Source: Seohaeicola saemankumensis
Lineage (GTDB): Bacteria > Pseudomonadota > Alphaproteobacteria > Rhodobacterales > Rhodobacteraceae
DNA length: 53,771 nucleotides
Direction: 5' to 3'
Assembly: GCF_021021435.1 (NCBI RefSeq)
Contig: NZ_JAINWI010000023.1
Location: 1 to 53,771 of the forward strand
Below, piece by piece: positions 6,799 to 46,531 of the stretch (positions are counted from its first letter, which is position 1; each line of letters starts with the position of its first letter). Made by a program: the position numbers and the translations under genes. The notes beneath the pieces were generated by a model, which ran no database searches, had not been told where the DNA came from, and worked only from the letters and a program-made list of their open reading frames with translations.

Positions 6799-6834
6799 CC
6801 GAGGATCAACCCCGCAGTCGAGAACATCATCGCG

Positions 6835-8205
6835 GTGACCCTGCGGGAGATGTGGTTGCGCCCGGAGCAGCCGGACCTTGCACCGATCGTTGAAGAGATC
6901 CGCACCCGCTGCGCAGAGGAAGGGCACACTCCGCCCGCCTATGTCACTGTCGCCCGGCGCATTCCCATCCTGTTCACCCCGGAAGAAATTGCCCGCCGCC
7001 GCCTGTCAGATGGTAAACACCTGCACCGGCTGAAGCCGCGACCGGGCTACATCCGGGCTAACCACGCACTCGACGTTGTCCAGATCGATCACACGCCGGC
7101 AGACATCCAATTTGTTGAGGTGATTGATGACCACGGTGTCTTCGTTGGTCGCCCCTATCTGACCATCGCTGCAGATGTGGCCACGAGCGCGATCATCGGC
7201 TTCTGCCTGACCCTCGAGCGGCCGTCACGACTGTCTGTCGCGCTTTGTCTGGCGCACGCGATGTGCTGCAAGACTGCCTGGCTGGCAGAACGCGGCATCG
7301 ATCATGCCTGGCCAATGCATGGTCGCCCGAAGCAGATCGTCGTCGATTCCGCCAAGGAGTTCCAAAGCAGCACCTTCAGCAGAGGATGCGCGGACTATGG
7401 CATCGCCATACGCATGCGGAACAAGGGCACCGTGCATCGGGGCGGAGTCGTCGAACGCCTGCTGGGGAAAGTGAACACCGCGTTACGGGCCTTGCCCGGT
7501 AAGACAGGGCGTTCCATCGCGGATCGGGGTGACTATGCCTCGGAAGCGCGGGCACGGCTCAGCTTCGCGGATCTTGAACGCTGCATCGCGCTCGCGATCA
7601 TCGACCACAACCTGAGCCAGAATGCGCGCAAGCTGACCGTTCCGGCGAAAGAGTGGAAAGATCTGTTCCAGCCGAAGGACCGGCCGATCGATGCACCTGT
7701 CGATGTGCTGCTGAATTTCCTGCCACGCAAGACGCGGAAAATTTCACCTCAGGGCATCAGTCTCTTCGCCATCGACTATTTCGAACCTTGGCTGGGCCCG
7801 TTGGTCGCGCGTCGTGATCGGCTGGCCCCGCTCGATCTGTGCTATGATCCTCGCGACATCAGCCATGTCTACGTCAAGGATCCGGATACGCAGGCCTGGC
7901 GGCCGGTCAGGCGACGGGACGGACTGGCCGAGCCGATCACGCTTTGGCAGCACCAGGCGGATCGACAGCGGCGGCGTGAAGTCCAGCGGCGCCCCGTGCA
8001 GGAGGCAGCAGCCATCCGACGCGAAATCGCTGCAACTGTTGCCGCCGCCAAAACCCCCAAAAGCCGGTTGAAGGAGATGACCCGCGCCCGGCATGCCACC
8101 GGGGCAAAGAAACCTTATGCCGACTTCGCTGCGCCTTCCGCCTCGGCCCAGGCAAAACTCGACCCGGATCGTCCGCGGCGGGTCTTCCCGGTCGAGGATT
8201 GGTAA
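6835..8205 (+). CDS. tniA: TniA/TnsB-like DDE transposase, 5'-truncated (unit 1)
   Basis: This is a retroviral-integrase-fold transposase of Tn7/Tn5053-like elements. DDE motifs from the GTG at 6835 are VVQIDHTPAD (Asp85), IVVDSAKEF (Asp171) and GGVVERLLG (Glu207), followed by a Mu-type C-terminal barrel and a basic tail ending PRRVFPVEDW. Homology to the second copy at 38899 begins at about 6802 (RINPAVENIIAVTLREMW). The second copy has about 85 residues more at its N-terminus, the DNA-binding helix-turn-helix part. That part was lost at the IS110 junction, so the protein probably cannot bind transposon ends. It is followed directly by tniB. Confidence 0.85.
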   Translation: MTLREMWLRPEQPDLAPIVEEIRTRCAEEGHTPPAYVTVARRIPILFTPEEIARRRLSDGKHLHRLKPRPGYIRANHALDVVQIDHTPADIQFVEVIDDHGVFVGRPYLTIAADVATSAIIGFCLTLERPSRLSVALCLAHAMCCKTAWLAERGIDHAWPMHGRPKQIVVDSAKEFQSSTFSRGCADYGIAIRMRNKGTVHRGGVVERLLGKVNTALRALPGKTGRSIADRGDYASEARARLSFADLERCIALAIIDHNLSQNARKLTVPAKEWKDLFQPKDRPIDAPVDVLLNFLPRKTRKISPQGISLFAIDYFEPWLGPLVARRDRLAPLDLCYDPRDISHVYVKDPDTQAWRPVRRRDGLAEPITLWQHQADRQRRREVQRRPVQEAAAIRREIAATVAAAKTPKSRLKEMTRARHATGAKKPYADFAAPSASAQAKLDPDRPRRVFPVEDW

Positions 8206-8206
8206 G

Positions 8207-9088
8207 GTGCCGGATCACCTCATGCCCGCCACCGTCCCGCTCTTGCAAGCCGATGACGCAGTGCGGATCGCCCATGTGCGCGCGCCGCGCTGGATCAGCC
8301 ATCCGGCCGCCGGCGCGGCGCATGACGCGATGCGACTGCTGGTCGAGCGGCCGCCATCCCTGCGCCCACGCGGTTTGCTGCTTGCCGGTCCCTACCACAA
8401 CGGCAAAACCATGATCGCCGAACGCTTCGCCGTCGAACATCTGCGTGCCGCCGACCAGCAAAAGGTGTGGGTGATCCAGACCCGAGAAGGTGCAGGGCTG
8501 TCGCATTTCTATGCCAGCATCCTGTCTGGATTGCGCGCACCACAAGCCGATGGCTGGCGCAGCCTGTCCCGCGCCGGCGATCAGGTGGATCATCTTCTGG
8601 AGCGCTTGAAGCCGCGCCTTTTGATATTCGACGAGTTCCACAGCGCATTGCGCGGGCGGCGCCAGGATGTGAAGGCCATCTTCTCGTTCTTGCGGCGGAT
8701 CGCACGGGTGCATGACATCTCACCCGTCCTTGTCGGCGAAATCGCGATCTACGATGCGGTGCATGATACGGACGAAATGGGCTCACGTTTCGATACGATC
8801 CCCATTCCACGATGGCCGTATGACGAGGAATTCGCGACGCTTCTCGACAGCCTGGAAGCCAGTCTGCCGCTCGCCGACACCTCCGATCTGTCGCGCGAAC
8901 CCTTGGCGAAGATCATCCATGATCTGTCAGAGGGGCTGATCGGCGAGGTTGTCGAGATCGTCACCCGTGCCGCAGTGGCGGCAATCTCGCGCGGTGAGGG
9001 CCGGATCACGGGCGCAACCCTGTGGGACCTCGGCTATGTGCCTCTCTCGAGGCGCCGTAATTCCGCTTTGCGTCACGATATGACATGA
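8207..9088 (+). CDS. tniB: TniB-like AAA+ ATPase (unit 1)
   Basis: The AAA+ transposition regulator has Walker A GPYHNGKT at about residues 61-68 and Walker B LLIFDEFH at about 138-145. By family it is the ATP-dependent target-selection partner (TnsC/TniB) that links TniA and TniQ. The GTG at 8207 is chosen because it sits 1 bp after the tniA stop, with GAGG upstream; the ATG at 8222 is the alternative. It overlaps tniQ by 4 bp (ATGA), as expected for a tniABQ operon. Confidence 0.85.
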   Translation: MPDHLMPATVPLLQADDAVRIAHVRAPRWISHPAAGAAHDAMRLLVERPPSLRPRGLLLAGPYHNGKTMIAERFAVEHLRAADQQKVWVIQTREGAGLSHFYASILSGLRAPQADGWRSLSRAGDQVDHLLERLKPRLLIFDEFHSALRGRRQDVKAIFSFLRRIARVHDISPVLVGEIAIYDAVHDTDEMGSRFDTIPIPRWPYDEEFATLLDSLEASLPLADTSDLSREPLAKIIHDLSEGLIGEVVEIVTRAAVAAISRGEGRITGATLWDLGYVPLSRRRNSALRHDMT

Positions 9089-10095
9089 GGTTTGGGCCGA
9101 CCGAGATATCCGTCACATCTGCAGAGCGGTATGAAAGTGTGGCGGGAAGCCGTTGGCCAGTGAGCATTATGCCCGCACCAGGTGAACTTCTGTCGAGTTG
9201 GCTGCACCGCCTCGCCTACGCGAACGGCATACCTCCGCACTATTTTGGCACGCTTCTCGGAGCGCCGGGTGAGAACTGGTCGGCGCGGCTTGATCGGGCG
9301 TTGCCCGATCGCATCCTGCAGTTTCTGCGAGAGCATACCGGCATACCCGTGGAAGACATCGCGGCTCTGACCATTGCCCCTGACCCTTTGGCTGTGCTGC
9401 GTTTGCCCCTGCGGGCATCGCCTCAGCAGAGTTGCGCACCCAGGAGGCAGGTTACCTGGCTGCAGTTCTGTCCCGCTTGTCTGACGGAAGACGAAACGCC
9501 CTATTTTCGCCGAGACTGGCGCCTCGCGACACGCGTTTCTTGCTTTCGCCACGGCTGCCGACTTCGGGACAGGTGCCCATCCTGCGGACAAGGATTGGCT
9601 CCGTTCAGCCAGAAGCGTCTTGTGCCGCATCAGATCTGCGCCTGGTGCGGCGCGGCCCTCTGCAAACGCATCCGTCCTGCCACCAATGGGGTTCGGCGTC
9701 TTGAGCGTCTGATCGACGATCTGCTTCGTCTGCAGGCATCAGGGCATCGAATGGCAGAGGGGCGATCACTCCCGGACCTTCTTGGATCAGCCTGCTTTCA
9801 ATTTAGTCGACGGCCAATGTCCATCGCGCGCCTCTCTCATCGGGATCGCTATCAGCTGTTTCAGAAATTGGCGGAAGGGCGGTCGACGCCGTTCGAAAAG
9901 AGAAGAAGTTCCGCGATTATCTATTGGAAACGCGTCGTTCAGGCTGCGCCAGCTTGGAGCGGACTGGTCACATCATTCAGCGATGCCGTCCTGCCTCGGC
10001 CCAAAGCTGGGCCTTGCTCTACCACCGCTGGCCCGCATTTGGCGGATCTCGTTCAGGCGGCCGCGCGGCTCGATCAGCAGCGGCAAGCGCTGTAA
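9085..10095 (+). CDS. tniQ: TniQ-family zinc-finger protein (unit 1)
   Basis: TniQ/TnsD-type target-selection protein of 336 residues. The conserved start of the domain is PAPGELLSSWLHRLAYANG (about 31-49). Cysteine clusters of a zinc-binding fold follow: FCPAC, VSCFRHGC, CPSCGQG and CAWCGA (about 128-192). It ends 17 bp before the stop of the convergent ScpB-like gene. The same tniQ-ScpB junction is seen at 42996/42980, indicating an inherited unit rather than chance neighbours. Confidence 0.88.
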   Translation: MRFGPTEISVTSAERYESVAGSRWPVSIMPAPGELLSSWLHRLAYANGIPPHYFGTLLGAPGENWSARLDRALPDRILQFLREHTGIPVEDIAALTIAPDPLAVLRLPLRASPQQSCAPRRQVTWLQFCPACLTEDETPYFRRDWRLATRVSCFRHGCRLRDRCPSCGQGLAPFSQKRLVPHQICAWCGAALCKRIRPATNGVRRLERLIDDLLRLQASGHRMAEGRSLPDLLGSACFQFSRRPMSIARLSHRDRYQLFQKLAEGRSTPFEKRRSSAIIYWKRVVQAAPAWSGLVTSFSDAVLPRPKAGPCSTTAGPHLADLVQAAARLDQQRQAL

Positions 10096-10111
10096 AAATT
10101 CCCGGTGAGTT

Positions 10112-10768
10112 TCAGGCGCGCGCGGCCAGCCCGGCATCATTCAGCTGTTCAGCATCTGGCAGGTCGCGCAAGCTCTCCAGCCCGAAAGCTGCGAGGAACG
10201 CGTCTGTGGTCACGAAGGTATAGGGGGCACCACGACGCGGCGCGCGCGGCCCAGTTCCAATCAGACCCTGCGCATGCAGCCTTCCGATCAGGTCCCGGCT
10301 GATCTCTTTGCCAAAGATGTCTTTGAGCCCATCGCGGGTGATCGGCTGGTGGTAGGCGATGGCCGCCAAAATCGCGACGTCGAACTCGTTCAGGTCCAGC
10401 AACTGGTCTCCGACATCCGCTGCGGCGCGGATCGCAGGCGCGTAAACAGGCCGCGTCCGGAACATCCACCCCCCTGCGACCATGGCAATCTCGAACGCCC
10501 GCCCTTCCAGATCAGCGGCAAGGTCTTCCAACAGCAGATCAACCGAAGTCCCCTGCCCCACTATGCGCGCCAGATCCTCGCGCGGTACAGGCGAGGCAGA
10601 GGCAAACAGCACCGCCTCGATCCGGCGCATCCATTCCCGCCAGCGCAACTCCGGTGGCAGGTCGAGCAACTCGCGATCAAGCTCAGCTTCTGGTCGATCC
10701 TTCGACTTCCTTTCCGGTCGCATGTCCGAACCGCGAAACCGGTTCCCACTTTCGCTGTCCATGCTCAT
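10112..10768 (-). CDS. scpB: ScpB-like winged-helix protein (unit 1)
   Basis: The 218-residue protein matches segregation and condensation protein B: LRWREWMRRIEAVLFASASPV, the DLLLEDLAADLEGRAFEI wing region, and AAIAYHQPITRDGLKDIFG with a GLIGTGPRAPRRGAPYTFVTT second winged helix. Housekeeping ScpB works with SMC and ScpA kleisin, but no scpA or smc is here. It follows the DUF1403 gene by 2 bp and is about 80 percent identical by eye to the copy at 42980-43639. A polar N-terminal extension of about 30 residues precedes the ScpB core. Its role in a transposon is unknown. Confidence 0.85.
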   Translation of the reverse strand: MSMDSESGNRFRGSDMRPERKSKDRPEAELDRELLDLPPELRWREWMRRIEAVLFASASPVPREDLARIVGQGTSVDLLLEDLAADLEGRAFEIAMVAGGWMFRTRPVYAPAIRAAADVGDQLLDLNEFDVAILAAIAYHQPITRDGLKDIFGKEISRDLIGRLHAQGLIGTGPRAPRRGAPYTFVTTDAFLAAFGLESLRDLPDAEQLNDAGLAARA

Positions 10769-10770
10769 GG

Positions 10771-11247
10771 CTACACCCCGTAGAGCCGGAATGTGTCGCG
10801 CCCGGTTAGCTCACGGACCGCGCCGAGATCGACAAGCCGGTCACAGAGCCGCCGCGCCGCGCGGTCCGGCAAAGGCAGGGCACTGGGCGCCACGGCGTCC
10901 TGCGTCAGGAATATTTTCACCGCCGCCCCTGCCCCCTTGGCCCGAAGCTTTGGTGCAACTCCTTTCAAAAGCGAAGCCCGACGCGCGAGATCGACAGCCA
11001 GACGCGCGGCCTCGACCGCGGATGCGGTCACTGCGCGATGACAGGCTAGGCGCAAATCGTCACCCCGCTTGCGCAGGTCTGTGCGTTTCAAACCCGCGGC
11101 CAGCAGCGGCACGACATGATCCCAACCAAGCGCCTGGGCGAGGGCGGCGTCCGCGAGGATCAACGCCGGGACTTCGGCACGGGGTGCCTCCGTCAGGACA
11201 GCATCCAGCGCCATCGCGGCACGGGTCACCGGCGCTCCCTTCCCCGT
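10771..11247 (-). pseudogene. DUF1403-like protein, C-terminal fragment
   Basis: The remaining residues, from about GKGAPVTRAAM to LTGRDTFRLYGV, match the C-terminal half of the complete protein at 43642-44526. Homology stops exactly where the tniABQ transposon begins (TGTCGCG at 11248). The open frame runs on through the transposon end to 11292 with a chimeric N-terminus. The missing N-terminal half and the expected neighbouring recombinase gene are not found on the far side of the transposon, so a deletion accompanied or followed the insertion. Confidence 0.85.
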
Positions 11248-11313
11248 TGTCGCGTTGCCCTTTAATCTGAGACGCGACGCGTTTGGCGACAATTTTTGCC
11301 CTTAATTGTGAGA
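11248..11313. repeat. Left end of the tniABQ transposon with two transposase-binding repeats
   Basis: TTGCCCTTTAATCTGAGA (11255-11272) and TTGCCCTTAATTGTGAGA (11296-11313) are two copies of one motif, oriented inward and about 41 bp apart. The inner copy overlaps the end of tniQ. The same motif occurs four times at the other end. Confidence 0.85.
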
Positions 11314-12093
11314 TACGGCTGTCATGGGGCCCCTGTTTCTCGCGCACCTTTGCGCGATGTGATCAACCGCGGCAAGCAATCGAGGCTCCTTCTCGAAGGC
11401 GCGCAAGAGAGCAACCCTTGCATAGTCGTCGATGCTTTTGCTGACGATGGCTGCCTTAGCCAAGGGATGAGATCGAGCGGCGGCGATTGCGGCGAGGCAG
11501 AACAGCCTAACTTCCGATCTGGGGTTCTGGACAGCGAACGACGGATCCCCGCGGAAGGTTTTGAGTGACATGGCAAAGGTGACTGCGCGCATTGCGCGCC
11601 GAAGTTGCTTGGGGCCGCGCGAGCGCGCGGCGCACTCAAGCATCTCTGCCCCGCGGCGCGCTCGGTATATCAGTTTTCCAGATATTTGTTCCTCACGGAG
11701 TTTGCCAAGGGTCTGCACAAGTCTCGTCCCGCAAACTTGGCAGTCAAATGCCCAGGCCCGCCTCCAATGCCTGAGCGAAAGGCCCTCTCTGGCGCATTGC
11801 ATGCAATGCTGGAATGGCATCTGAGCCGTCAGCGAGGCTTCTCGTGGCGTCATTGCCGGAAAGGTCAAAGATCGAACAACATCTGGGTTAACCCGTGCGG
11901 CGTTGGCAATCTTCGCCGCCGCAGCCGCGTCGACGTTGAAGTCCAAGGCGGTGCCATGCGCGGTATCGATTCTGAGATGAGCCAGTAGTTCCGCATCATC
12001 ACAGTAGTTGGCCGCCGCCAGCCGAGACAACCAACCTGACAACAACTCGTCTGGCAGCGGCGCGACAGTCTTGGGCAGCGGGTGCGGCTTCAC
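11302..12093 (-). CDS. tniQ: TniQ-family protein (compact transposon)
   Basis: This 263-residue TniQ protein has LPDELLSGWLSRLAAANY (about 14-31) and a reduced zinc site, HCMQCAREG and FDCQVCGTRL. The GTG at 12093 is taken as start because it overlaps the tniB stop in GTGA, giving translational coupling; a longer frame upstream to 12153 would overlap tniB by 64 bp. It should choose the target site together with TniB. It is unrelated in detail to the unit 1/2 TniQ proteins, so the two transposon systems are different families. Confidence 0.82.
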   Translation of the reverse strand: MKPHPLPKTVAPLPDELLSGWLSRLAAANYCDDAELLAHLRIDTAHGTALDFNVDAAAAAKIANAARVNPDVVRSLTFPAMTPREASLTAQMPFQHCMQCAREGLSLRHWRRAWAFDCQVCGTRLVQTLGKLREEQISGKLIYRARRGAEMLECAARSRGPKQLRRAMRAVTFAMSLKTFRGDPSFAVQNPRSEVRLFCLAAIAAARSHPLAKAAIVSKSIDDYARVALLRAFEKEPRLLAAVDHIAQRCARNRGPMTAVSHN

Positions 12094-13013
12094 ACCCGGG
12101 ACTTCTGGAGCCGCCGATGGGGGTTCGCATGGCGCGACCAAACCGGCGTCCATTTTGCGATTGCGTCATCGGTGATGCATTCCTCGCCTGTGATAATGGC
12201 GTCGATGGAAAGATCCTTGACCAGAGCGAAGATGCGCGAGGTCACCCCACCGGTCAGTGCCAAGACCTGCTTGAGAGATTTGACCTTCAGGTTGGACTTC
12301 TTTTCCAGTGGCATGGCAGCAATAAGGGTCTGGATCATGTCCGAGAACTCGGCATCGTCGCGCCAGTTTGGCAGATGATGTTCGTCCAGCCGTCGGGCAA
12401 GCTGGATATCACCGCGAATAGCATCGACGGCCTCGCTGACCCCAAGGCAGACCAGTGACACCTCGAGTTCATTGCTGAGATACCGCAGGACATTGAGAAA
12501 TCGGCGCTGTTCGCGGTGGGTCCCGGCCAAGAGATTGTGGACCTCGTCGATCATGATCATCCGCAGGCCAAGGTCGCGTAAGAGCGCGATGACACGGACT
12601 TCGAGGGAAGCCACATTTTGAGCGCGGGCGCTAAGAGCCGTCGCCGGGGCGCCGACGGCGGCCAGGATGTGCAGGTAAAACCGCCGTTCATCAGGTGCGG
12701 GCGGCGCTTGCAACAGCAGAAGCGGTGTGCGGGTGATGCCCGACGCCGGATCGTATTCTGGTGCGTACTTGCGCGACAGGTTTCGGGCAATCATCGTCTT
12801 TCCGATCCCGGAGGCGCCATGCACAAGAAGCCCAGGCATACGGGTTTGTCGTGGCGCTTCGATCATGCCCTGCAAGCGGTCCAACACCTGTTCCGCCCGA
12901 GGAAAGCCGATCCAGATATCCGATTGAATGAGGGCGATCCGGCCGTCTTCTTCAGTTGTCCCTGCCCTCAATTCACCATCTCTCCACCTTGAACAATGGG
13001 CGCGATGTATCAC
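12090..13013 (-). CDS. tniB: TniB-like AAA+ ATPase (compact transposon)
   Basis: The AAA+ ATPase shows Walker A HGASGIGKTM (about 64-73), Walker B RMIMIDEVHNLL and a downstream arginine-rich lid. It resembles TniB/TnsC of Tn5053-like transposons, which couples target recognition by TniQ to strand transfer by TniA. The frame starts 41 bp inside the tniA end. An in-frame TTG at 12971, right after the tniA stop and with GGAG upstream, is an alternative start that would give a 14-residue shorter protein. Confidence 0.85.
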   Translation of the reverse strand: MIHRAHCSRWRDGELRAGTTEEDGRIALIQSDIWIGFPRAEQVLDRLQGMIEAPRQTRMPGLLVHGASGIGKTMIARNLSRKYAPEYDPASGITRTPLLLLQAPPAPDERRFYLHILAAVGAPATALSARAQNVASLEVRVIALLRDLGLRMIMIDEVHNLLAGTHREQRRFLNVLRYLSNELEVSLVCLGVSEAVDAIRGDIQLARRLDEHHLPNWRDDAEFSDMIQTLIAAMPLEKKSNLKVKSLKQVLALTGGVTSRIFALVKDLSIDAIITGEECITDDAIAKWTPVWSRHANPHRRLQKSRV

Positions 13014-14607
13014 CCGTATCGATCGGGCGCAGCCCTTCGGTTGTCGAGACGGCCGAGTTCGTGCCCTTCAATGTCCCTTTTCTTTCACGGGTTCTGCGTT
13101 CGGCCTTCGTCAGGCCCCGGCTTTCAGCTTCGATCTGGCGTTGCTGTCGGATCAGCTCAGCCAGCACCAGCTCATTAGACCCGGACTTGCCAAGGGCACG
13201 GGCCTTCCTCATCGCTTCGCGATATTCCCAGAGCGAGACGGGCGGAATTTCCAGGTTTCTGTACCGCGCCTCAACATACCGGCCATCGTCCAGTTCGACC
13301 CAGATCATTGAGATATCGCGAGGATCGTAGCGAACGACCACCTTTCCATCCCCGCGCCCAATGTGGCCTGCAAGGGCATCTGACCAGTACCTTATCTGGA
13401 ACAGATGGATGCCGTCACGCCTGATCTTGCGCAGTTCACTCGGCAGGAAGCTCACCTGAAAGGCTTCCATCTCGAAGGGGATGTCGCCTGTCATTTGCTC
13501 TGAGAGCGCCTCCCATTTGGCAACGGGCGTGCAGCCAAGACTTGAATGAATGCTGTTGTTGTAACGGCAGATTTCCAGAGCAAACCAGCGATCGAATTCG
13601 CTCAACGTCATCGTGGCCTTGCTTTCGGCGTCATAGTCGCCCTTTGCCGCGATCGAGGATTGCGTTGTTCCCGGCAACAGGTGAACGGCCCCCATCATGG
13701 TGCCGATCAACCGTTCGATGTGACCACCGAAGTGAGGACTTGCTGGCGGTCGATAGACCAGATCGATCCCCCAATCCGCACAGGCCGACCGAAAGGCGCG
13801 CGACCGGAAATCGCGGCCATTGTCGACATGGACACTCTGCGGTTTGCCCTGTGCCGGCCAAGGAACATCGCACGCCAATTCCGCAAGAAGTTCCTCCTTG
13901 AGGGCCACCGCCTGTGTCAGGCAAAGCGCCACTGACAGACGCGAAGGTGCCTCGAGAGAGGTGTAATATCCGGTCACCATCCGCGTTGCGACGTCGATCG
14001 CCAGCGTGACCCAAGGCCGCCCAATTGGTTTGCGTTCAAAGCCGTCGACAAGAATGATGTCCGCCGGTGTATGATCAATTTGGACGATCTCCAGTGGCAT
14101 ACTGGCCTTGTTCTCACCTGTGACCGGCGCAAACTTCTGGCGGGCCGCCTTTGCGCCCTCTCGTGCCTTCGCAACTTCGCGGGCATCCATCGCATCCAGA
14201 CGACGCTGAACCGTTCGCCGTGTCGGCGGTTGCAAGCCCTCCTGCCAGCAAGCGCTGCGGATTTCTGTCACGACGCGCGACAAGCTCGAACGCTCCCGGC
14301 GCAAGAAATAGCGGCGAAGGTGCTCCTCGATTACCGCTTCGACTTTGCTGGATATTAACATCGTCCCGGTCGGGCGGCCCCGTTTCCGCGGAGCCAGAGC
14401 GCTGGTGCGCCCACCCTCTTCCGCCAACCGTTTTATCCAACGCCAGACCGTCGCCCTGCTGACACCAAGCTCCCAAACGGCGTCATTGATGCCACGTTCC
14501 AGGCTGCCAGTCCCATTGAGATATGCCTGAACAAGAGGGCGCAGCACCGCGGCCCTGCGCGCCTCTTCAGCACCAACAGCAACGCAGTCTTCGCCATCAT
14601 CATTCAT
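12973..14607 (-). CDS. tniA: TniA/TnsB-like DDE transposase (compact transposon)
   Basis: This complete transposase of 544 residues has an N-terminal helix-turn-helix (about 38-62, WELGVSRATVWRWIKRL) and a second DNA-binding region to about 150. The catalytic core carries QIDHTPAD (Asp178), VHVDNGRDF (Asp262) and GGHIERLIG (Glu298), followed by a C-terminal barrel and a basic tail (TKAERRTRERKG) likely to bind TniB. ATG 14607 is preferred over a TTG at 14622. All three acidic residues are present, so it should be active on the terminal repeats at 11248-11313 and 14639-14753. Confidence 0.88.
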   Translation of the reverse strand: MNDDGEDCVAVGAEEARRAAVLRPLVQAYLNGTGSLERGINDAVWELGVSRATVWRWIKRLAEEGGRTSALAPRKRGRPTGTMLISSKVEAVIEEHLRRYFLRRERSSLSRVVTEIRSACWQEGLQPPTRRTVQRRLDAMDAREVAKAREGAKAARQKFAPVTGENKASMPLEIVQIDHTPADIILVDGFERKPIGRPWVTLAIDVATRMVTGYYTSLEAPSRLSVALCLTQAVALKEELLAELACDVPWPAQGKPQSVHVDNGRDFRSRAFRSACADWGIDLVYRPPASPHFGGHIERLIGTMMGAVHLLPGTTQSSIAAKGDYDAESKATMTLSEFDRWFALEICRYNNSIHSSLGCTPVAKWEALSEQMTGDIPFEMEAFQVSFLPSELRKIRRDGIHLFQIRYWSDALAGHIGRGDGKVVVRYDPRDISMIWVELDDGRYVEARYRNLEIPPVSLWEYREAMRKARALGKSGSNELVLAELIRQQRQIEAESRGLTKAERRTRERKGTLKGTNSAVSTTEGLRPIDTGDTSRPLFKVERW

Positions 14608-14638
14608 CGATATTTGCCGCAAATGTCTGTGAACCCTG

Positions 14639-36877: not shown

Positions 36878-36881
36878 CTAG

Positions 36882-38737: not shown

Positions 38738-38898
38738 TTGCTTTGCCGTTTCATCAAAAAGTTCTTACAGGATTCCAGTAGGATGAAGCGTAATCCGACG
38801 CGATATTTTACGTTTCGATTTCAATTTTAAACTCGCGTTTCAACAAGCGAGAGACTGGGGCAGAAAATGGAGTTCAGCAACCGTGGTGCGGCGGGTTC
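38738..38898. repeat. Probable left end of tniABQ unit 2
   Basis: AT-rich region between DUF1612-like and tniA (unit 2). CGATTTCAATTTTAA (38816-38830) nearly repeats, in inverted orientation, CTACAATTGAAATCG at 45862-45876 by the right end. TTTACGTTTCG and CTCGCGTTTCAACAAG look like further copies. CGACGCG at about 38796 may be a degenerate form of the TGTCGCG end, but no clean TGT terminus is visible, so the exact boundary is unresolved. Confidence 0.45.
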
Positions 38899-39539
38899 GT
38901 GATGCTGCGCGAAAACGAAGCGTCTGACGAGGCTTGGGCGAAGGCAACGCGTATCGGACGAGAACTGGATCGAATTTTGGACGGGCAAGAGCCTATGCGC
39001 ACCGCAGTTGCTCGGGCCGCATCCGAATTGCGTCTCTCGACGCGCCAAGTCTACAACCACCTGCGCCGATACCGCACCGAGCGCCGGGTTTCTTCGCTGT
39101 TGCCAAAGACTGGTGGGGCCCGGCGCACAAGGATCAGCCCGGCTGTAGAGGAGATCATTGCGGCAACGCTTCGGGAGATGTGGCTTCAGCCCGAGCGACC
39201 GGACCTTGCGCCGATTGCCGATGAAATCCGCACCCGTTGTGTCATCGAGGGTCTTGATCCGCCCGCCTATGTCACCGTTTCCAAGCGTATCCCACGACTG
39301 TTCACGCCCGAGGAGATTGCCCGACGGCGACATTCAGGAGGGAAAAGCCTGCGGCGTCTGAAACCCCGCCCAGGCTATATTTGGGCCAAACACGCACTCG
39401 ATGTTGTCCAGATAGACCACACCCCCGCCGACATCCAGTTTGTGGAAGTCATCGATGGTCAAGGCATCTATGTCGGACGCCCCTATCTCACTATCGCTGC
39501 CGATGTGGCAACAAGCGCGATTATTGGCTTCTGCCTGAC
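38899..39539 (+). pseudogene. tniA: TniA/TnsB-like transposase, N-terminal part (unit 2)
   Basis: Residues 1-213 are intact: helix-turn-helix region (ASELRLSTRQVYNHLRRYRTE, about 45-65), RISPAVEEIIAATLREMW and the first Asp motif VVQIDHTPADIQF (about 170-180). At 39540 the IS21 terminus begins and the rest of tniA is absent on the other side. It supplies the N-terminal sequence missing from the unit 1 copy, so the two can be compared to define the full protein (about 540 residues). Confidence 0.88.
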
Positions 39540-39666
39540 TGTCAATGAGCGTTCAAAACTGACCCGGTTTCAGCATTTGAATTTGACCCACCCCTTGTGG
39601 CGCAAAGGCCCCAGGCGGGCCGCCCTCATATAGCGAGTCCGTCTGGGGCCTTTGCTTGCGCGACGT

Positions 39667-40398
39667 TTATGTTTTTCTGCGTCGCTTGCTCTGTGCGAAC
39701 CGGTATGACGTGTTGCCTGTCTCGATGATTGCGCAGTGATGGGTTACGCGATCCAGAAGCGCGGTTGTCATCTTGGCGTCACCGAAGACCGAGACCCATT
39801 CGCCGAACTCCAGGTTCGTCGTGATGATGACACTGGTCTTCTCATAGAGCTTGCTGATCAGATGGAACAGCAACGCGCCGCCGGACTTGGGGAACGGGAT
39901 GTAGCCCAGCTCGTCGATGATGACGCAGTCCAGGGCCGAGAGCTGCCGGATGATCTTCCCGGCATTGCCCTCGGCCTGTTCCTTGATCAGGGCGTTGATC
40001 AGGTCGACGGCGTTGAAGAAGCGCGCCTTCTTACCATTGTTGATCAGCGTGGTGCCCAGAGCGATGGCGATGTGGGTTTTGCCGGTGCCGGTTCCACCGA
40101 CCAGAATGAGGTTGTGCGCCTCTTCAGTGAACTGGCCCGTGCAGAACGGTTCGATCTGGGGCTGGGTGACCGCGGCCGCGGCGTAATCGAAGGTGGCGAA
40201 GTCCTTGTGGTGGGGGAACTTCGCAATCCTCATTTGATACTGGATGGAGCGCACCCGCCGCTCTACAGTCTCAGCGTCGATCAGTTGCTTTATCGCTGTG
40301 GTCAGACTTGGTGGCTTGCGCGCGGACAGCAAATCATGGGCGCAAGCTGCCATCCCGTGCAGCCTCAGGGCGGTCAGTTGGTCGATGAGGGCGTTCAT
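39667..40398 (-). CDS. istB: IS21 helper ATPase IstB
   Basis: The 243-residue AAA+ ATPase has Walker [12 protein letters not shown] (about 99-109), Walker [12 protein letters not shown] and the [15 protein letters not shown] sensor region. The start overlaps the istA stop (ATGA). IstB stimulates strand transfer and target choice by IstA. It appears complete. Confidence 0.93.
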
Positions 40399-41894
40399 GC
40401 GGCAGCCTCCTCAGCCGAGCACAGCGCCTCATAGCGCTTGCAATCGGCCTCGGGCCGTAAGGTCAGCTGCGGATAGGTATAGGCGTCGCTGAGCGGCGTG
40501 ATGACCGGCTCCACCAACTGGTTAATCAGGTTGATGATGGCAGGCAGGCGCAGGGTGTTTTGTTCCACCGCCAGTTCGCAAGCCGTCTCGACCACCTCGA
40601 TCCCGTGATCCTCGGCCAGCAGAAGCAGATCGACGAACTCCCGATCCCCGCCTTTGCCGGCCATGTAGTGCTCCCTGATCCGATGCATGGCCCCAGGCAG
40701 TTGCCAGTCCACAAAGGGGGCGCCGTCGCGCAGGGCGCCGGGCTTGCGATCCAGCAGCGGCACGTAGTGCCAAGGTTCAAAATAGCTGACATTGCGGGTG
40801 AATCGACGCTTGTGCTCGGCGATGACATCCTGGCCCGACACCAGCACGATCCGGCCTGCATAGGCGCGCAGCGACACATGTTGCCCCGCGAACCGGGACG
40901 GCACGCTGTAGCGATTGCTGGCATATTGAACCAGGCAGGTGGAGCGAACACGAACGGTCTTTTCCACGTATCCGTCAAATGCTCGCCCCAGAGGGCGCAG
41001 TTCGGCGCGTTCGTCTTCGAACAGCTCTGCAATCGTGCGATCCGATTGCTCGGGATGGGGCCGGTTTGCCAGCTCCTCACAGCGCAGGCGCAGCCAATCG
41101 TTCAGCGCATCGAGATCATCAAAGGCAGGTTTGGGCACAAACAACCGGCCGCGCAAAAACTGGACTTGGTTCTCGACCTGTCCCTTCTCCCAGCCCGCAG
41201 CCGGGGTGCAGGCCACCGGCTCCATCACGTAATGGTTCATCAAGGCCAGGAACCGGGGATGGAATATCCGGTCCTTCGAGCGCGAGACGTAGGTCACCAT
41301 GGTCTTGGGGTTGTCGATGATCACCCGGCGTGGAACCCCGCCATAGAAAGACAGCGCCTTCGCAAAGGCATCCAGCACCATCTCCTGGGCTTCGCCGGGA
41401 TAGGCCACGACAAAGGGCTTGCGGCTGTGGCACAGGCGGAAATGGGCAACCTTCACCTTCTGCTCGATACCGCCCAGGACAACCCGTTCTTCGCTCCAGT
41501 CAAATTGCAGCGCATCGCCTGCCGCAAAATGCAGCGGGATAAAGGCCTCGCCCGAACCGGCACCGGCTCGCTTCAGATCGCGGACAAATCGCTGAACTGG
41601 CGAATAGGAACCGGTGTAGCCTTCCACCACGAGCTGCTCATAGAGCGTCTGGGCCGTCCGCCGCTCCCGGAGTGGTCGCTTCTGGTCCTGATCGAACAGC
41701 TCCTGAAGCCGAAGATCAAACCCGTTGCACAGTTTGTGCCGAACCGGCGGGGCCTGGCGCTGGTAGCTCGGCGGGCTCTCATCCTTCAGATACTTCTTGA
41801 TCGTGTTCCGCGATAATCCCGTCGCCCGCGCAACAGACCGGATGCTGCGTCCCTCAACCAATACCCATCGTCGGATCTTCGACACGCTTTCCAT
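40395..41894 (-). CDS. istA: IS21 transposase IstA
   Basis: The DDE transposase of 499 residues has an N-terminal helix-turn-helix ([26 protein letters not shown], about 14-40). Catalytic motifs are [23 protein letters not shown] and [19 protein letters not shown] 41894 fits the family start ([11 protein letters not shown]) better than the longer frame to 41981, which begins in the terminal repeats. All core residues are present, so the element could be active. Confidence 0.92.
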
Positions 41895-42010
41895 CAGTAA
41901 CACCTGCTCTTTCCTCCGCACGTTTAGTGCGGATGTTAACGAAAACAGGTGGGTCAATTTTACTCGCTCATAACCCACCAAAGTGGGTCAATTTTGCACG
42001 CCGCTTCACA

Positions 42011-42996
42011 GCAATGAGGTGGGGCAAGGCTGGCCCGGCGCTGTTGCACCGGCACCCGGAGAGCTTCTGTCGAGCTGGCTGCATCGGCTGGCCATGGCCA
42101 ATGGAATTCCACCTCAATATTTTGGGCGGGTTCTGGATGTCGCAGGTGGGGATTGGTCTGCGAAGCTTGACCGAGATCTTCCCGGGCGAGTCCTTGATCT
42201 CCTGATCGCGCGAACCGGATTGCCCGTCGAGGATATTGATGGCCTGGCATTGATCAGCGACCCACTGGCCCGGTTGCGTGTGCGGCAGATCGCAAGAACA
42301 GGAGATGTCCGCACATCGACCGCTCGGGTCAATCGCCTGCAATATTGCCCGCCATGCCTGAAAGAGGATCGCGCACCGTTCTTCCGGCGCGGCTGGAGCC
42401 TGGCGACGCGCGTTTCCTGCTTTCGGCATGGATGCCGCTTGCGCGATCACTGCCCTGCCTGCGGCGGCGGCATTGCGCCTGCTCGACAAAACCGCCTTCT
42501 GCCGCAACATTTCTGCGTCTGGTGTGATGCTGATCTCCGAAAACCCACCTTGCCCGCCGAGTATGATGTGCAGCGTCTCGAGCGGCTCATCGACGATTTG
42601 CTTCGAATGCATGTTGCGGGACATGGCGGGCATGGAAAGACATCCCTGCCTGCCACGCTTGGAGCGGCTTGCTTCACGTTCAATGGCGAGCCTACGCCAA
42701 TTTCGCGCCTGCCGCACCGGGTCCGATACGCATTGTTCCGCCAATTGACCGATGGAATGACGCACTTCCAAGAACGTTCCGAGCATCCCGCAATTGATCT
42801 CTGGACCCGCATTGCACTGGCTGCGCCCAAGCATTCCGACTTGGTGGCGTCATTGAGTGCAGAGATCACGTCACGGATAACACCAAGGGCAAAGACGCGC
42901 TCCAGACATCCTGATTTGGCGGACTTACAACAGGTCATCGTTCGCCTTCATTCAAACCGCCGCACATCATTGGCAACGGCTATGCCTGCCAATTGA
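42011..42996 (+). CDS. tniQ: TniQ-family zinc-finger protein, N-terminally clipped (unit 2)
   Basis: It matches the unit 1 TniQ from APAPGELLSSWLHRLAMANG onward, with zinc clusters YCPPCL, VSCFRHGC, CPACGGG and CVWCDA. The first 20-25 codons of the unit 1 protein are missing at the IS21 junction. The open frame begins inside the IS end at 41983, so a chimeric start could still express it. It overlaps the 3' end of the convergent ScpB-like gene by 17 bp. Without tniB it is probably not functional in transposition. Confidence 0.82.
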
Positions 42997-43639
42997 TGAC
43001 CCCCGCATCCTCCATCTGCTCCCGATCGGGCAGGTCCTGCAGCGACTCCAGATCGAAAGCGACCAGGAACTGCTCCGTCGTCACATAGGTATAGGGTGCC
43101 CCGCGCCGCGGCGAGCGTGGCCCGCTGCCAATCAATCCACGCGCATGCAATCGTCCGATCAGATCCCGACTGATCTCTTTTCCAAAGAGGTCTTTCAGCC
43201 CGTCCCGTGTGATCGGCTGGTGGTAGGCGATGGCGGCCAGGACAGCGACATCGTACTCGCGCAGATCGAGGTCCTGTTCATCTATGTCAGCGGCGGTTCG
43301 GATCGCCGGGGCGTACGCGGGCCTCGTCCTCAGCATCCAACGGCCGGCGACCTCTGTCACTTCGAATGATCTGCCGTCAAGGTCAGCGGCCAAGTCCTCG
43401 ATCAGAAGCTCAACCGAAGCTCCCTGCCCTACCACCCGAGCCAGGTCCTCGCGCGGCACCGGCGATGCGCTGGCGAAGAGAACGGCTTCAATCCGCCGCA
43501 TCCATTCGCGCCAGCGCAATTCGGCTGGCAGATCGTTCAGCTCCCGATCGAGGTCGGTTTCGGCCTGATCCTTGGCCGTTTTTGGTGGTCGCATGTCCGA
43601 ACTTTGAGCCCGGTTCCCACTTTCGCTAGCCATGCTCAT
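42980..43639 (-). CDS. scpB: ScpB-like winged-helix protein (unit 2)
   Basis: 219 residues, the same layout as the protein at 10112-10768: a polar leader, LRWREWMRRIEAVLFASASPV, and the tandem winged helices with AAIAYHQPITRDGLKDLFGKE and GLIGSGPRSPRRGAPYTYVTTEQFL. It starts 2 bp after the DUF1403 stop, implying co-translation. ScpB dimers normally bind the kleisin ScpA under SMC. With neither present, DUF1403 is the obvious candidate partner (inference). Confidence 0.85.
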   Translation of the reverse strand: MSMASESGNRAQSSDMRPPKTAKDQAETDLDRELNDLPAELRWREWMRRIEAVLFASASPVPREDLARVVGQGASVELLIEDLAADLDGRSFEVTEVAGRWMLRTRPAYAPAIRTAADIDEQDLDLREYDVAVLAAIAYHQPITRDGLKDLFGKEISRDLIGRLHARGLIGSGPRSPRRGAPYTYVTTEQFLVAFDLESLQDLPDREQMEDAGVINWQA

Positions 43640-43641
43640 GC

Positions 43642-44526
43642 TCAGACCCCGTAGAGCCGGAACGTGTCGCGGCCGGTCAGTTCGCGCACTGCGCCGAGAT
43701 CGACCAACCGGTCACAAAGCCGCCGTGCGGACCGGTCCGGTAGTGGCAGGGACGCAGGCGCGACGGCATCTTGGGTCAGGAACATCGAGACGGCGGCCTC
43801 CGCGCCTTTGGCGCGCAGCTTCGGCGCGACCGCTTTGAGATGCGCTGCCCGACGCGCGAGGTCAGTTGAGAGACGCATGGCCTCGACCGCCGATGAGACG
43901 AGCGCACGATGACAAGCCGAGCGTAGGTCTTCGCCTCGCTTGCGCATGTCGGCCCGTTTCAAGCCTGCGGCCAGAAGCGGCACGACATGATCCCAACCAA
44001 GCGCCTGGGCGAGGGTCGCGTCAGCAAAGATGAGCGCGGGCACCTCGGCACGGGGGGCATCGTTGAGTACCGCCTCCAGCACCATTGCCGCGCGACTGAC
44101 CGGTGCCCCCTGCCCGGCATCGAGCCAACTCGCGATCTGATCACCCTGAAGTTCAGGCAGCGCCCGGACCAGAGCCTTCACGGTCACCGGCTTTTCCGTG
44201 GCGCGACGCCACGCCAGACAGGTTTCTCCTGCCGGGCCGGGCAGGTCGCCGGGACGCAGCAGATGGACCACGTCGCGCAATTCACCCGCCCGTTCCAGAC
44301 GACCCGAAAACGCGACACAAGCCTCGGCCGCGCGCAGCGCGAGCCGGTCCCGCAGCAAGGCCTGGGGGACAGGCTCGTATCCTAACACAAGATGCAGGTG
44401 GCTCAGTGCTGCGCCCGACAAAAACGCCACATCTTCAAGGGTTTCGGCGTGTGCCGAGGTGACCCAGGGCGGCATCCGGGGTACGCTGTCAGGGTCGCTG
44501 TCGAAGGTTGGCCGGGCATATGTCAT
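43642..44526 (-). CDS. DUF1403-like protein, complete
   Basis: 294 residues, mostly helical. Notable stretches are LEDVAFLSGAALSHLHLVLG, LPQ-like VPQALLRDRLALRAAEACVAFSGR, EVPALIFADATLAQALGWDHVVPLLAAGLKRADMRKRG and a C-terminal ARRLCDRLVDLGAVRELTGRDTFRLYGV that looks like a winged helix. It is first in an operon with the ScpB-like gene and divergent from the tyrosine recombinase, 114 bp away. It is typical of alphaproteobacterial plasmids in my recollection. Function unknown; partnership with the ScpB-like protein is proposed from spacing and conserved pairing. Confidence 0.8.
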   Translation of the reverse strand: MTYARPTFDSDPDSVPRMPPWVTSAHAETLEDVAFLSGAALSHLHLVLGYEPVPQALLRDRLALRAAEACVAFSGRLERAGELRDVVHLLRPGDLPGPAGETCLAWRRATEKPVTVKALVRALPELQGDQIASWLDAGQGAPVSRAAMVLEAVLNDAPRAEVPALIFADATLAQALGWDHVVPLLAAGLKRADMRKRGEDLRSACHRALVSSAVEAMRLSTDLARRAAHLKAVAPKLRAKGAEAAVSMFLTQDAVAPASLPLPDRSARRLCDRLVDLGAVRELTGRDTFRLYGV

Positions 44527-44605
44527 GCCACAACACTATCTCGCGGCGGCGCTTTTGACTACCAAATAGTGTCGAAACCGCCCCTCTTTGCCGAGCATTT
44601 CTACG

Positions 44606-44630
44606 TCCAATAACCTTGCGTTATCGGACA
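44606..44630. promoter_or_regulatory. Inverted repeat between DUF1403 and the tyrosine recombinase
   Basis: Arms GTCCAATAAC (44606-44615 region) and GTTATCGGAC, 9 of 10 bp symmetric around the 5-bp centre CTTGC, end 10 bp before the recombinase start. It can be an operator for the divergent genes. It also has the form of a tyrosine-recombinase core site (two roughly 10-bp arms around a short spacer). Confidence 0.55.
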
Positions 44631-44640
44631 TAAAAATGAT

Positions 44641-45792
44641 ATGCTGGGAAGCATGGGTAATCTCACAAATAACAGCACCAAAATCGAGGGTTCGGGCGGA
44701 TCTGAGTCCGGGATTTCGAGCTCAGCACCCCATACCGCGCCGAACAGTGACGAGCGCGACGAGAGAACCTCTCGGGACGGAACCTCAATCGCTCTGCCCG
44801 CCCATGTGGCCGGCTCCGGCGCACTCGACCGGCTGATCGACACCGCGCGCGACTACGCCGAGGCCTCTACAGCTGAGAACACCAACAAGGCCTACTCGGC
44901 CGACTGGAAACACTTCACCCGTTGGTGCCGGTTGAAAGGGACGGATCCCCTGCCCCCCTCGCCCGAGATGGTCGGGCTCTATGTGGCGGACCTGGCCGCC
45001 GCGACCGGGGCGTCCCCTGCTCTCTCGGTCTCCACTATTGAGCGCCGCCTCTCCGGCCTCGCTTGGAACTACAGGCAGCGGGGGTTCACTCTTGATCGCA
45101 AGGACCGCCATGTCGCCACCGTCCTGGCCGGGATTAAGCGCAAGCATGCGCGCCCACCGATTCAGAAAGAAGCAATCCTGCCTGAGGACATCCAGGCCAT
45201 GGTGGCCACCCTTCCCTACGATCTCCGCGGGCTCCGAGACCGGGCGATCTTGCTCTTGGGCTATGCAGGTGGCCTGCGCCGTTCAGAGGTGGTCTGCCTC
45301 GATGTGCATAAGGACGATACACCGGACTCCGGCGGTTGGGTCGAAGTCTTCGACGGCGGCGCCCTGCTCACCCTCAATGCCAAGACCGGATGGCGCGAGG
45401 TTGAGGTCGGGCGTGGCTCAAGCGACCAGACCTGTCCCGTCCACGCGCTTGAGCAATGGCTACACTTTGCGAAGATCGACTTTGGGCCGGTCTTCGTGCG
45501 CACCTCGCGGGACGGCAAGCGTGCCCTCGAGTCCCGCCTCTCCGACAAGCACATAGCGCGACTGATCAAGGCAACCGTTATGAAGAGTGGCATCAGATCC
45601 GATTTGCCGGAAGCCAAACGGTTGGCAATGTTCTCGGGGCATTCCTTGCGTGCCGGGCTCGCCTCGTCGGCAGAGGTTGATGAGCGCTATGTTCAAAAGC
45701 AACTCGGACATGCGTCGGCCGAGATGACCCGGCGCTACCAGCGCAGGCGCGACAGGTTCAGGGTGAACCTGACCAAAGCCGCAGGGCTGTGA
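44641..45792 (+). CDS. Tyrosine site-specific recombinase
   Basis: The 383-residue integrase has a core-binding domain (about 70-170) and a catalytic domain with the full set of active residues: Arg213 (GLRRSE), Lys248 (NAKTGW), His334 and Arg337 (SGHSLR), His357 (LGHAS) and nucleophile Tyr366 (RRYQRR). The first 60 residues are Ser/Gly-rich and probably disordered; Met5 is an alternative start. It is divergent from DUF1403/ScpB and adjacent to the transposon right end. Roles could be integration, cointegrate resolution for the TniABQ element, or plasmid dimer resolution. Confidence 0.9.
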   Translation: MLGSMGNLTNNSTKIEGSGGSESGISSSAPHTAPNSDERDERTSRDGTSIALPAHVAGSGALDRLIDTARDYAEASTAENTNKAYSADWKHFTRWCRLKGTDPLPPSPEMVGLYVADLAAATGASPALSVSTIERRLSGLAWNYRQRGFTLDRKDRHVATVLAGIKRKHARPPIQKEAILPEDIQAMVATLPYDLRGLRDRAILLLGYAGGLRRSEVVCLDVHKDDTPDSGGWVEVFDGGALLTLNAKTGWREVEVGRGSSDQTCPVHALEQWLHFAKIDFGPVFVRTSRDGKRALESRLSDKHIARLIKATVMKSGIRSDLPEAKRLAMFSGHSLRAGLASSAEVDERYVQKQLGHASAEMTRRYQRRRDRFRVNLTKAAGL

Positions 45793-45892
45793 AGCTCAGG
45801 AATCTTGACGCGTTGGTGAAGCGCTAAGATGAAATTCCAGCGCCTCAGTTTCAGCTTACGGCTACAATTGAAATCGGGAATTAAACGCGACA
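45793..45892. repeat. Right end of tniABQ unit 2
   Basis: The segment ends ...GAATTAAACGCGACA at 45892, so read inward it starts TGTCGCGTTTAATTCCCGAT. The same first 8 bases, TGTCGCGT, begin both ends of the transposon at 11248-14753. Inside it are repeated elements CTACAATTGAAATCG, TTTCAGCTTACG and AAGATGAAATTCC, probably transposase-binding sites. The DUF1612 homology of the neighbouring fragment stops exactly at this end. Confidence 0.72.
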
Positions 45893-46531
45893 GTGCTGCC
45901 CGAGCCCCGCTAGGCCCCATAGGTGAAAGCCCATAGCGGCGCGGGTGATCGGGTGCAGGTCATTGGCTTGCCCCATCAAATCCAGCCAGCCGCTCGCACG
46001 ATCCACGAACGGCTCGATCTCATCACTTAGGTTCTCGGGGTCACGACGGTCTAGGAAGGCGGACAGGTCCTGCTCTGGCCCCGGTCCACCCGTCAGCCGC
46101 CGCACTGCCCAACCGACACGCGCGAGCGCCGCGGTGTCGTCCTGCACGCCGGACAAGCGCATGGATATCCAAAGCGCCAGCCTATCCTGGCTGATGCGAT
46201 CACCCGCGAACCAGCTAAGGTCGGCAGCCTCGATCAGGGCAAGTCTGTGCCGCCATCCTTCCGGGCCCCGCTTTAGCCGTTCATCCAGGGCACCGAGGCG
46301 ACCGGCCACACGAGCAAGACGCGCGGCATGGCCCGCCTCTGCTTTCCGCCAATCCTCGAGGACTTCGGCTTCACACGGTTCGGCCCGTGGTCCGGGCGGC
46401 AAATAATCCGGCTCCTCTTCCATGGGACCGGGCAGGAACCAAAGATCGTCTTCAGACGCCTGTTCAACCTCCTCACCGTCGAGGATGAGAGCATCATAAT
46501 CATCATGCAAGACAGGCGCTTGAGGCTTCAT
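45893..46531 (-). pseudogene. DUF1612-like gene cut by the transposon end (N-terminal 212 residues)
   Basis: It begins MKPQAPVLHDDYDALILDGEE and aligns with the protein at 37739-38737 through SGWLDLMGQANDLHPITRAAMGFHLWGLAGLGQ, then enters the transposon end at 45892 and stops. The C-terminal winged helix is missing. The sequence differs clearly from the other copy, so it is a paralogue, not the other half of one gene. It shows the true N-terminus lost from the other copy. Confidence 0.82.

Follow-up and report, generated by a model that had tools for sequence, protein, structure and literature searches.

A plasmid module of tyrosine recombinase, DUF1403 and ScpB-family protein, probably a multimer and cointegrate resolution system partly carried by a Tn5053/Tn402-like transposon lineage

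Why should a transposon with the genes tniA, tniB and tniQ (tniABQ) carry a ScpB-family protein, a protein of the family DUF1403 and a tyrosine recombinase? This question is raised by a stretch of 53,771 nucleotides from Seohaeicola saemankumensis (bases 1-53771 of contig C16, NZ_JAINWI010000023.1; source genome of 4.09 Mb in 75 contigs), hereafter the window. The window is plasmid-like, with ParA, ParB and RepC genes at 48011-51472, and it holds two damaged copies of this gene set, which an earlier reading of the letters alone (the sequence-only reading) had described as a recurring mobile unit. From the comparisons below we consider it likely that the three additional genes form a tyrosine-recombinase system for the resolution of multimers and cointegrates, in which DUF1403-ScpB would serve as accessory factor and which is partly carried by a Tn5053/Tn402-like lineage.

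We surveyed 95 DUF1403 loci with scores of at least 197 bits, taken from 394 drawn genomes of the same family; the window's own genome was excluded and weaker and partial DUF1403 matches were left out. A second set consisted of the best 80 of 520 relatives and is hence biased to close ones; it overlaps with the survey in some genomes (L054/L151, L075/L163 and L083/L166). ScpB was located next to DUF1403 in 94 of the 95 survey loci, and rep or par genes were found within 8 kb in 59. A divergent tyrosine recombinase was present upstream in 65 of the 87 loci with at least 1.3 kb of sequence (within 300 bp in 52). No tni genes were found within 5 kb in 76 of the 95 loci, 67 of the 95 having 5 kb on both sides, while tni genes were convergent downstream in 12 and situated between recombinase and DUF1403 in 7. 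The best-80 set was richer in tni (15 downstream, 11 between, 56 with none within 5 kb). Beyond the family, tblastn detected DUF1403 matches in 697 of 72,556 plasmid records, and the module also occurs on plasmids of Ochrobactrum, Agrobacterium, Bradyrhizobium, Methylocystis and Sinorhizobium. In Alphaproteobacteria the module mostly adjoins plasmid maintenance genes; the trio is chiefly a stand-alone plasmid module that one Tni lineage carries. Since most surveyed loci lack tni, we rejected the idea that the trio belongs obligatorily to a Tni/Tn7 machine. The sequence-only reading had expected a chance association if the trio occurred mostly without tniABQ and outside the transposon ends; the first was found, yet six-gene elements with shared ends exist. 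A defence system was also discarded, as PADLOC gave no match for DUF1403, ScpB or the recombinase.

Alignment of 54 distinct recombinase/DUF1403 intergenic regions exposed a near-invariant core with the consensus ATGTCCGATAA-TGCAAAC-TTATTGGACAT, that is, 11-bp arms around a 7-bp spacer (general form ATGTCCGATAA-N7-TTATTGGACAT). We call this core dif-like. With up to six substitutions the core was present in 114 of 123 loci and absent from one mononucleotide shuffle of the same 1.52 Mb. It was located within 400 bp upstream of DUF1403 in 78 of the 95 survey loci, and exactly 105 bp before the DUF1403 start in 55 of these 78. We selected 96 non-redundant leaders with a core at -105; in these the information content was 1.67 bits per base in the core and 0.38 on the recombinase side (-45 to -12). 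Of 388 family genomes, 55 had the exact core pattern, and 53 of these also had a DUF1403 match, while none of the tabulated genomes had the reversed control pattern; 61 of 70 core sites were situated within 500 bp of a DUF1403 match, partial matches included. The window's genome contains two core sites at up to two mismatches, in contigs C16 and C21, and the module on its contig C8 contains a core that is more diverged and equally spaced.

We also found an accessory inverted repeat, GGCGGTT..AAAGCGCCG, whose centre is 52 bp away from that of the core, equivalent to about five helical turns. It was detected in 155 of 162 loci with a core, in 21 of the 23 that have no complete core (L222 belongs to the two lacking it) and in 17 of 1850 shuffled leaders; the 23 hold duplicates (L083 equals L166, as checked, and L095 and L184 look alike). 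Retention of the repeat where no complete core is present makes self-regulation by DUF1403 probable as well. In three genomes (G687, G753 and G460) the system is split: DUF1403-ScpB occurs without recombinase or complete core (L212, L203 and L222), and the partner loci (L247, L248 and L249) combine recombinase, core and accessory repeat beside repAB(C) without DUF1403-ScpB. In G753 both parts are on the same contig, 49 kb apart. These split systems indicate that the accessory repeat is kept for the recombination site and not only as a DUF1403 promoter element. Thus gene order, fixed spacing and split systems tie DUF1403-ScpB to the recombination site.

The collection also contained a number of unusual arrangements. 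DUF1403-ScpB without adjacent recombinase or complete core was seen at L203, L205, L209, L211, L212, L218, L219, L221, L222 and L226, and at L208 the recombinase is 4.4 kb from DUF1403-ScpB; most such pairs keep the accessory repeat. Solo palindromic cores, without accessory repeat or intact recombinase nearby, occur at L250, L251 and L252, and an exact core match is present on one IMG/VR contig of 4,029 bases (L246, 325-353). At L225, the sole survey locus without ScpB, a tniABQ set occupies ScpB's expected place. Toxin-antitoxin-like genes lie between recombinase and core/DUF1403 at L018 (7136-7791, on a Ti plasmid record, annotated as VapBC) and, by reading only, upstream of the core at L051, L058 and L068. 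Contig PCCY01000024.1 (59 kb) carries two modules in the same order, about 39.5 kb apart and identical over the 2 kb compared (L086 and L087), which represent either a plasmid dimer or an assembly wrap-around. A seemingly natural DUF1403-ScpB fusion at L199 was not used, because its 597-amino-acid frame loses the ScpB frame and looks decayed.

If the core is a site of strand exchange, exchange should have left traces in its flanks. We compared 1 kb on each side of the core in 58 loci with a recombinase within 300 bp (1,653 pairs). Eighteen pairs were at least 93% identical on the recombinase side and below 85% on the DUF1403 side, 6 showed the reverse and 10 were at least 93% identical on both sides; the 18 and 6 pairs are not independent events and form, by inspection, about six clusters on the recombinase side. 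Identity correlated at 0.81-0.84 within one side and at 0.49-0.56 across the core. In a control scan, cut positions from -50 to 0 gave 14-17 pairs, and no other position gave more than 8 (8 and 5 at -100 and -150, respectively). Fifteen locus pairs from different genera were 99.5-100% identical up to the core and 73-81% beyond it; Celeribacter L063 and Salipiger L065, for example, have 0 mismatches over 7,909 bp to the core, followed by 79.9% identity. For 14 of the 15 pairs with an identity of at least 99%, the best break was no more than 17 bp away from the core centre, with two-log-unit intervals from -26 to +17.

The transposon described below takes part in this pattern. L026, L054, L056 and L059 share a near-identical half of 1,240-1,250 bp, from the core to the right end, and their other halves are diverged. 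Hybrids of transposon and plasmid module exist with the right end but without tni (L069 and L077) and, reciprocally, with tni but without the right end (L014, L027, L135, L153 and L201); among the latter, L135 (contig C21 of the genome from which the window comes) retains only tni fragments. In L027 a two-sided comparison supports the hybrid, with 74-76% identity on the recombinase side and 93-95% on the DUF1403 side. Read as footprints, these patterns show that recombination at the core happened during evolution.

Hybrids require intermolecular exchange. That such exchange has occurred, and that the tyrosine recombinase has PHROG integrase matches, would suit an integrase that inserts the plasmid or transposon at attachment sites of the chromosome and for which DUF1403-ScpB would be the directionality factors. 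We regard this as very unlikely, since cores are mostly within modules (61 of 70 near DUF1403, and only two sites at up to two mismatches in the window's genome) and the exchanges that we observed are swaps between modules at two cores rather than insertions into foreign sites.

Among the proteins of the module, the recombinases kept R, K, HxxR, H and Y in 137 of 137 aligned sequences, which had been pre-selected for full length and high score. Both ScpB proteins of the window remained under the NCBIfam ScpB equivalog cut-off of 89.2 bits (79.6 and 85.6 bits), and the closest PDB chains of the module ScpB were 1t6s and 3w6j. The host keeps a separate ScpB beside the genome's only ScpA match, on contig C15. 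No SMC or ScpA was recognised in the module, SMC not having been searched for. For DUF1403, AlphaFold models were built from 59 sequences; the best of five (predicted local distance difference test, pLDDT, 80; predicted template modelling score 0.82) was all-helical; one of its helices is long, and confidence is low at the C-terminal end. The eight PDB entries that Foldseek ranked highest for it were all Fic proteins (probability 0.54-1.00, 1.00 for six), with template modelling scores up to 0.59 but E-values of 0.03-0.52. Fic proteins have the active-site motif HPFx(D/E)GN, which, by eye, is not in the consensus of the 59 DUF1403 proteins. DUF1403 was also considered as a hidden kleisin and rejected: there was no good sequence match among solved structures (one, E-value 0.45), and the model resembles Fic proteins.

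These proteins bear on another explanation, namely that the pair serves plasmid partition, with ScpB-DUF1403 loading SMC onto the plasmid or condensing the plasmid, by bringing SMC-ScpA of the chromosome close to the rep genes; the recombinase would then be a mere neighbour. ScpB homology, the rep and par genes within 8 kb in 59 of the 95 survey loci and a host ScpA match adjoining a separate ScpB on contig C15 would all agree with it. We nevertheless consider partition unlikely: the module ScpB stays under the equivalog cut-off, DUF1403 has no ScpA sequence match and its model matches Fic folds, not kleisin, and the fixed core-DUF1403 spacing together with the split systems ties the pair to the recombination site.

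How, then, did the module come to lie in a transposon? Recombinase, DUF1403, ScpB, TniQ, TniB and TniA were found between the same TGTCGC ends at L013, L026, L028, L029, L054, L056, L057, L059 and L060, and in the further relatives L154 (with a nested IIIa element), L216 and L217. The sequence-only reading had looked to other genomes for copies with identical limits that include all six genes; several exist, and therefore the link is not two chance insertions. The eight elements whose length was measured had 6,555-6,619 bp. The right end followed the recombinase match at a distance of 103 bp in the nine relatives named first and in the window. Terminal inverted repeats, imperfect, about 25 bp long and beginning with TGTC, could be read at both ends in 12 relatives and the window.

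Five plasmids (L239-L243) contain the empty site, where a serine resolvase and a helix-turn-helix gene, HTH13g, are divergent and, in 5 of 5, exactly 226 bp apart; this module adjoins repA in all three records reaching that far. Insertions with target repeats were found inside HTH13g, at ATG+78 to +82 in L013/L029 (TCCTC, counted once), at +88 to +92 in L057 (CCACA) and at +88 to +93 in L060 (6 bp, ACCAGA), that is, 5-6 bp in 3 of 10 readable insertions. The recombinase end of the element points towards the serine resolvase. The hot spot is situated 76-93 bp inside HTH13g, about 300-320 bp from the resolvase start: the tniA-side flank mapped at +78 to +89 in 7 of 8 elements (L059 was unmapped on that side) and at +76 to +89 in 7 of 10 further loci (L075 and L163 being one locus), with the exceptions L014 (-60) and L201 and L216 (no match). 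In L026, L028 and L056 one side is at the hot spot and the other has a deletion towards the resolvase. Ends, hot spot and target repeats show that the transposon inserts on the HTH side of a resident serine-resolvase module; in its choice of target it behaves like the res hunters of the Tn5053/Tn402 family.

In L216 and L217, two copies in one genome, the flanks are different and CCGGC is split between the copies, at the outer side of opposite ends; this pattern fits replicative transposition, although a 5-bp match is weak evidence. The serine resolvase and HTH13g, in the window (46540-46760) as in L239-L243, represent a second, parallel resolvase-plus-HTH module, and the HTH protein could be a remote relative of DUF1403. 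We did not retain HTH13g as a clear DUF1403 paralogue, as the profile comparison was suggestive only (probability 43, E-value 2.5e-4, 86 C-terminal columns). The HTH13g AlphaFold model was poor (pLDDT 52).

The module itself is a target as well. Two further tniABQ families, IIIa and IIIb, insert on its recombinase side, about 25-55 bp from the core, and leave the core intact. IIIa insertions were seen at L022, L030, L041, L048, L082, L100 and L062, without a target repeat by eye, and IIIb insertions at L050, L064, L075, L081 and L085, with the direct repeat GAATC at L085; at L075 and L081 the right end of a IIIa element contains the IIIb element. The tniQ-side end faces the core, opposite to the usual res-hunter orientation relative to the recombinase gene. 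ScpB and DUF1403 do not lie between the ends of these elements or of the different tniABQ element at 11248-14753 of the window. The idea that ScpB and DUF1403 serve TniABQ transposition, by shaping target DNA, as the sequence-only reading had suggested, or by protecting a new copy, can draw on their conserved linkage inside one transposon lineage. However, other tniABQ elements do without the pair, and the 76 of 95 survey loci without tni within 5 kb, together with rep or par genes near 59, argue that the two are probably not parts of the transposition machine; we find such a role highly improbable.

We therefore return to the resolution system. The recombinase would cut and rejoin DNA at the dif-like core between its own gene and DUF1403, as the footprints suggest, and DUF1403 and ScpB would bind the phased inverted repeat about 52 bp from the core. 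The pair may thereby act as an accessory or architectural factor and probably also control its own promoter. On plasmids the system would convert dimers to monomers; in the transposon it would resolve the TniABQ cointegrate, replacing res-tniR. That the recombinase resolves cointegrates had been proposed in the sequence-only reading, and our results support it as very likely.

Several observations weigh against this picture. A strictly directional resolvase would disfavour the intermolecular exchange that the hybrids require. L027 is the sole hybrid backed by sequence comparison on both sides, the others being recognised by a missing or present end, and in L054/L059 the break is at +111 to +120, away from the core. 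No recombinase match was found within 6 kb upstream in 22 of 87 loci, some with tni between or on short contigs, and upstream open reading frames of ten recombinase-less loci gave no recombinase Pfam match. No recognisable core was present within 400 bp of DUF1403 in 17 of the 95 survey loci. Such loci suggest that the pair may serve some other purpose. That DUF1403 and ScpB bind the accessory repeat is a step that we infer. Three of the five DUF1403 models reached a pLDDT of 58-64, and the fold match is weak by E-value, 0.03 at best. As for the transposon, 7 of 10 readable insertions (L026, L028, L056, L059, L216, L217 and the window) have no target repeat.

A more specific version has, in our judgement, about an even chance of being right. 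Here a condensin-derived ScpB and a Fic-fold, DNA-binding DUF1403 would form an SMC-independent topological gatekeeper of the tyrosine recombinase that would enforce or regulate the resolution of plasmid dimers and transposon cointegrates; it would act in trans and let modules swap halves between unrelated plasmids.

In the window (Table 1), the gene order shared by the two copies is thus a true pattern that recurs between the same ends elsewhere, although both copies are damaged. The order tniA, tniB, tniQ, followed by ScpB and DUF1403 in reverse, holds by profile matches in copy 1, but copy 2 has no tniB: an IS21-like element has replaced this gene together with the C-terminal portion of tniA and the beginning of tniQ. 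As the sequence-only reading stated, the copies are diverged (65-75% DNA identity where alignable) and copy 2 has a divergent tyrosine recombinase. The TGTCGCG end it had noticed is the right end at 45892, with TGTCGCAATTGC at 38730 as its left counterpart. Its claim that the stop codons of tniQ and ScpB meet or overlap applies to copy 2 (17-bp overlap), but in copy 1 they are 16 bp apart. DUF1403 of copy 1 is interrupted by the tniABQ element of another lineage at 11248-14753, in which no resolvase gene was seen and no target repeat was found by eye. The flanks of copy 2 (cttct and gtgct) form no target repeat and belong to two different HTH13g copies; the region was therefore rearranged after insertion.

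Table 1. Coordinates of module, transposon and neighbouring features in the window
Feature	Position	Strand	Evidence or remark
Copy 2, type II element end to end, TGTCGC...GCGACA, interior damaged	38730..45892	+	ends match those of relatives
Copy 2 left terminal repeat, tniA side, TGTCGCAATTGCTTTGCCGTTTCATC	38730..38755	+	
Copy 2 tniA, N-terminal part only	38899..39570, end approximate	+	
IS21-like element, limits approximate	about 39550..42000	-	reverse open reading frames 41981-40395 and 40398-39667; named by reading the sequence only
Copy 2 tniQ, 5' end altered	41983..42996	+	PF06527, 85.6 bits
Copy 2 ScpB paralogue	42980..43639	-	PF04079, 120.5 bits; NCBIfam ScpB equivalog 85.6 bits
Copy 2 DUF1403, full length	43642..44526	-	PF07183, 328.8 bits
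Copy 2 accessory inverted repeat GGCGGTTT-N19-AAAGCGCC	44548..44582	-	presumed DUF1403/ScpB site
Copy 2 recombination core ATGTCCGATAA-CGCAAGG-TTATTGGACGT	44603..44631	-	about 5 helical turns from accessory repeat
Copy 2 tyrosine recombinase, R-K-HxxR-H-Y set intact	44641..45792	+	PF00589, 55.4 bits
Copy 2 right terminal repeat, recombinase side, TGTCGCGTTTAATTCCCGATTTCAAT	45867..45892	-	
Copy 1 remnant: tniA fragment, tniB, tniQ, ScpB (-), DUF1403 C-terminal part (-)	6802..11247	+	
Copy 1 tniA, 5' truncated by IS110-like fragment	6835..8205	+	IS110-like fragment at about 6606-6815, named by reading the sequence
Copy 1 tniB, start approximate	8174..9088	+	PF05621, 147 bits; profile match from 8174, open reading frame from 8093
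Copy 1 tniQ	9085..10095	+	PF06527, 96 bits
Copy 1 ScpB paralogue	10112..10768	-	PF04079, 118 bits
Copy 1 DUF1403, C-terminal part only	10771..11247	-	PF07183, 190 bits; profile positions 143-312 of 312
Second, different tniABQ element, ends TGTCGCGTTGCCC / TGTCGCGTAGCCC	11248..14753	-	Pfam matches; ends read from the sequence
Helix-turn-helix gene HTH13g, cut by copy 2 left end	37739..38729	-	
Second HTH13g copy, cut by copy 2 right end	45893..46531	-	
Serine resolvase, divergent from HTH13g (target module)	46761..47669	+	PF00239, 139.6 bits
repABC-type plasmid maintenance genes (ParA, ParB, RepC)	48011..51472	+	profile matches

How does the system compare with known ones? In the Tn4651-type TnpS/TnpT-rst system, as set out in part of PMC7157771, the site lies between a divergent recombinase and its helper and comprises a core and a second inverted repeat. 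Here too a tyrosine recombinase and a helper are divergent, with a site of two inverted repeats between them. However, the helper here belongs to the families DUF1403 and ScpB, and the carriers are mainly plasmids and the Tni transposon, not Tn3-family elements. For Tn5053/Tn402, the relevant part of PMC7765201 describes tniABQ, 5-bp target repeats and a non-tniA end towards the adjoining resolvase gene. Our element agrees with that description in tniABQ, target repeats, an adjoining serine resolvase and the non-tniA end nearest to it, but it lacks tniR-res and has the tyrosine-recombinase module instead. Section 11 of PMC8649781 had already mentioned tyrosine resolvases for the Tn5053 clade; the word ScpB is absent from the main text of that paper.

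For rhizobial plasmids, PMC10194956 reports an XerD-like gene that lies downstream of repABC and is suggested to resolve dimers, and also the serine recombinase RinQ; its main text likewise does not contain the word ScpB. The module differs from XerCD/dif in its one recombinase, the 7-bp spacer and the DUF1403-ScpB neighbours. With the SMC-ScpAB condensin it shares a ScpB-family protein (PF04079), but the module ScpB is below the equivalog cut-off and the host has a separate ScpB next to ScpA. DUF1403 appeared in no paper of the literature searched, most subscription papers and bioRxiv preprints being outside its scope. Within this literature no paper joined ScpB with repABC and a tyrosine recombinase, or with repABC and an integrase, and none dealt with ScpB in combination with site-specific recombinase, plasmid, repC and Rhizobium, or with 'SMC-Scp complex subunit ScpB' together with a transposon. 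The module is apparently undescribed and is present on many plasmids of marine and soil bacteria.

If our interpretation is true, it would give a function to DUF1403 and to the many plasmid genes annotated as 'SMC-Scp complex subunit ScpB', and for repABC-type plasmids, one Ti plasmid record included, the site of a resolution system would be mapped. A transposon with res-hunter behaviour carries the module, and other Tni elements use it as a landing site. Such sites would then also drive the shuffling of plasmid backbones.

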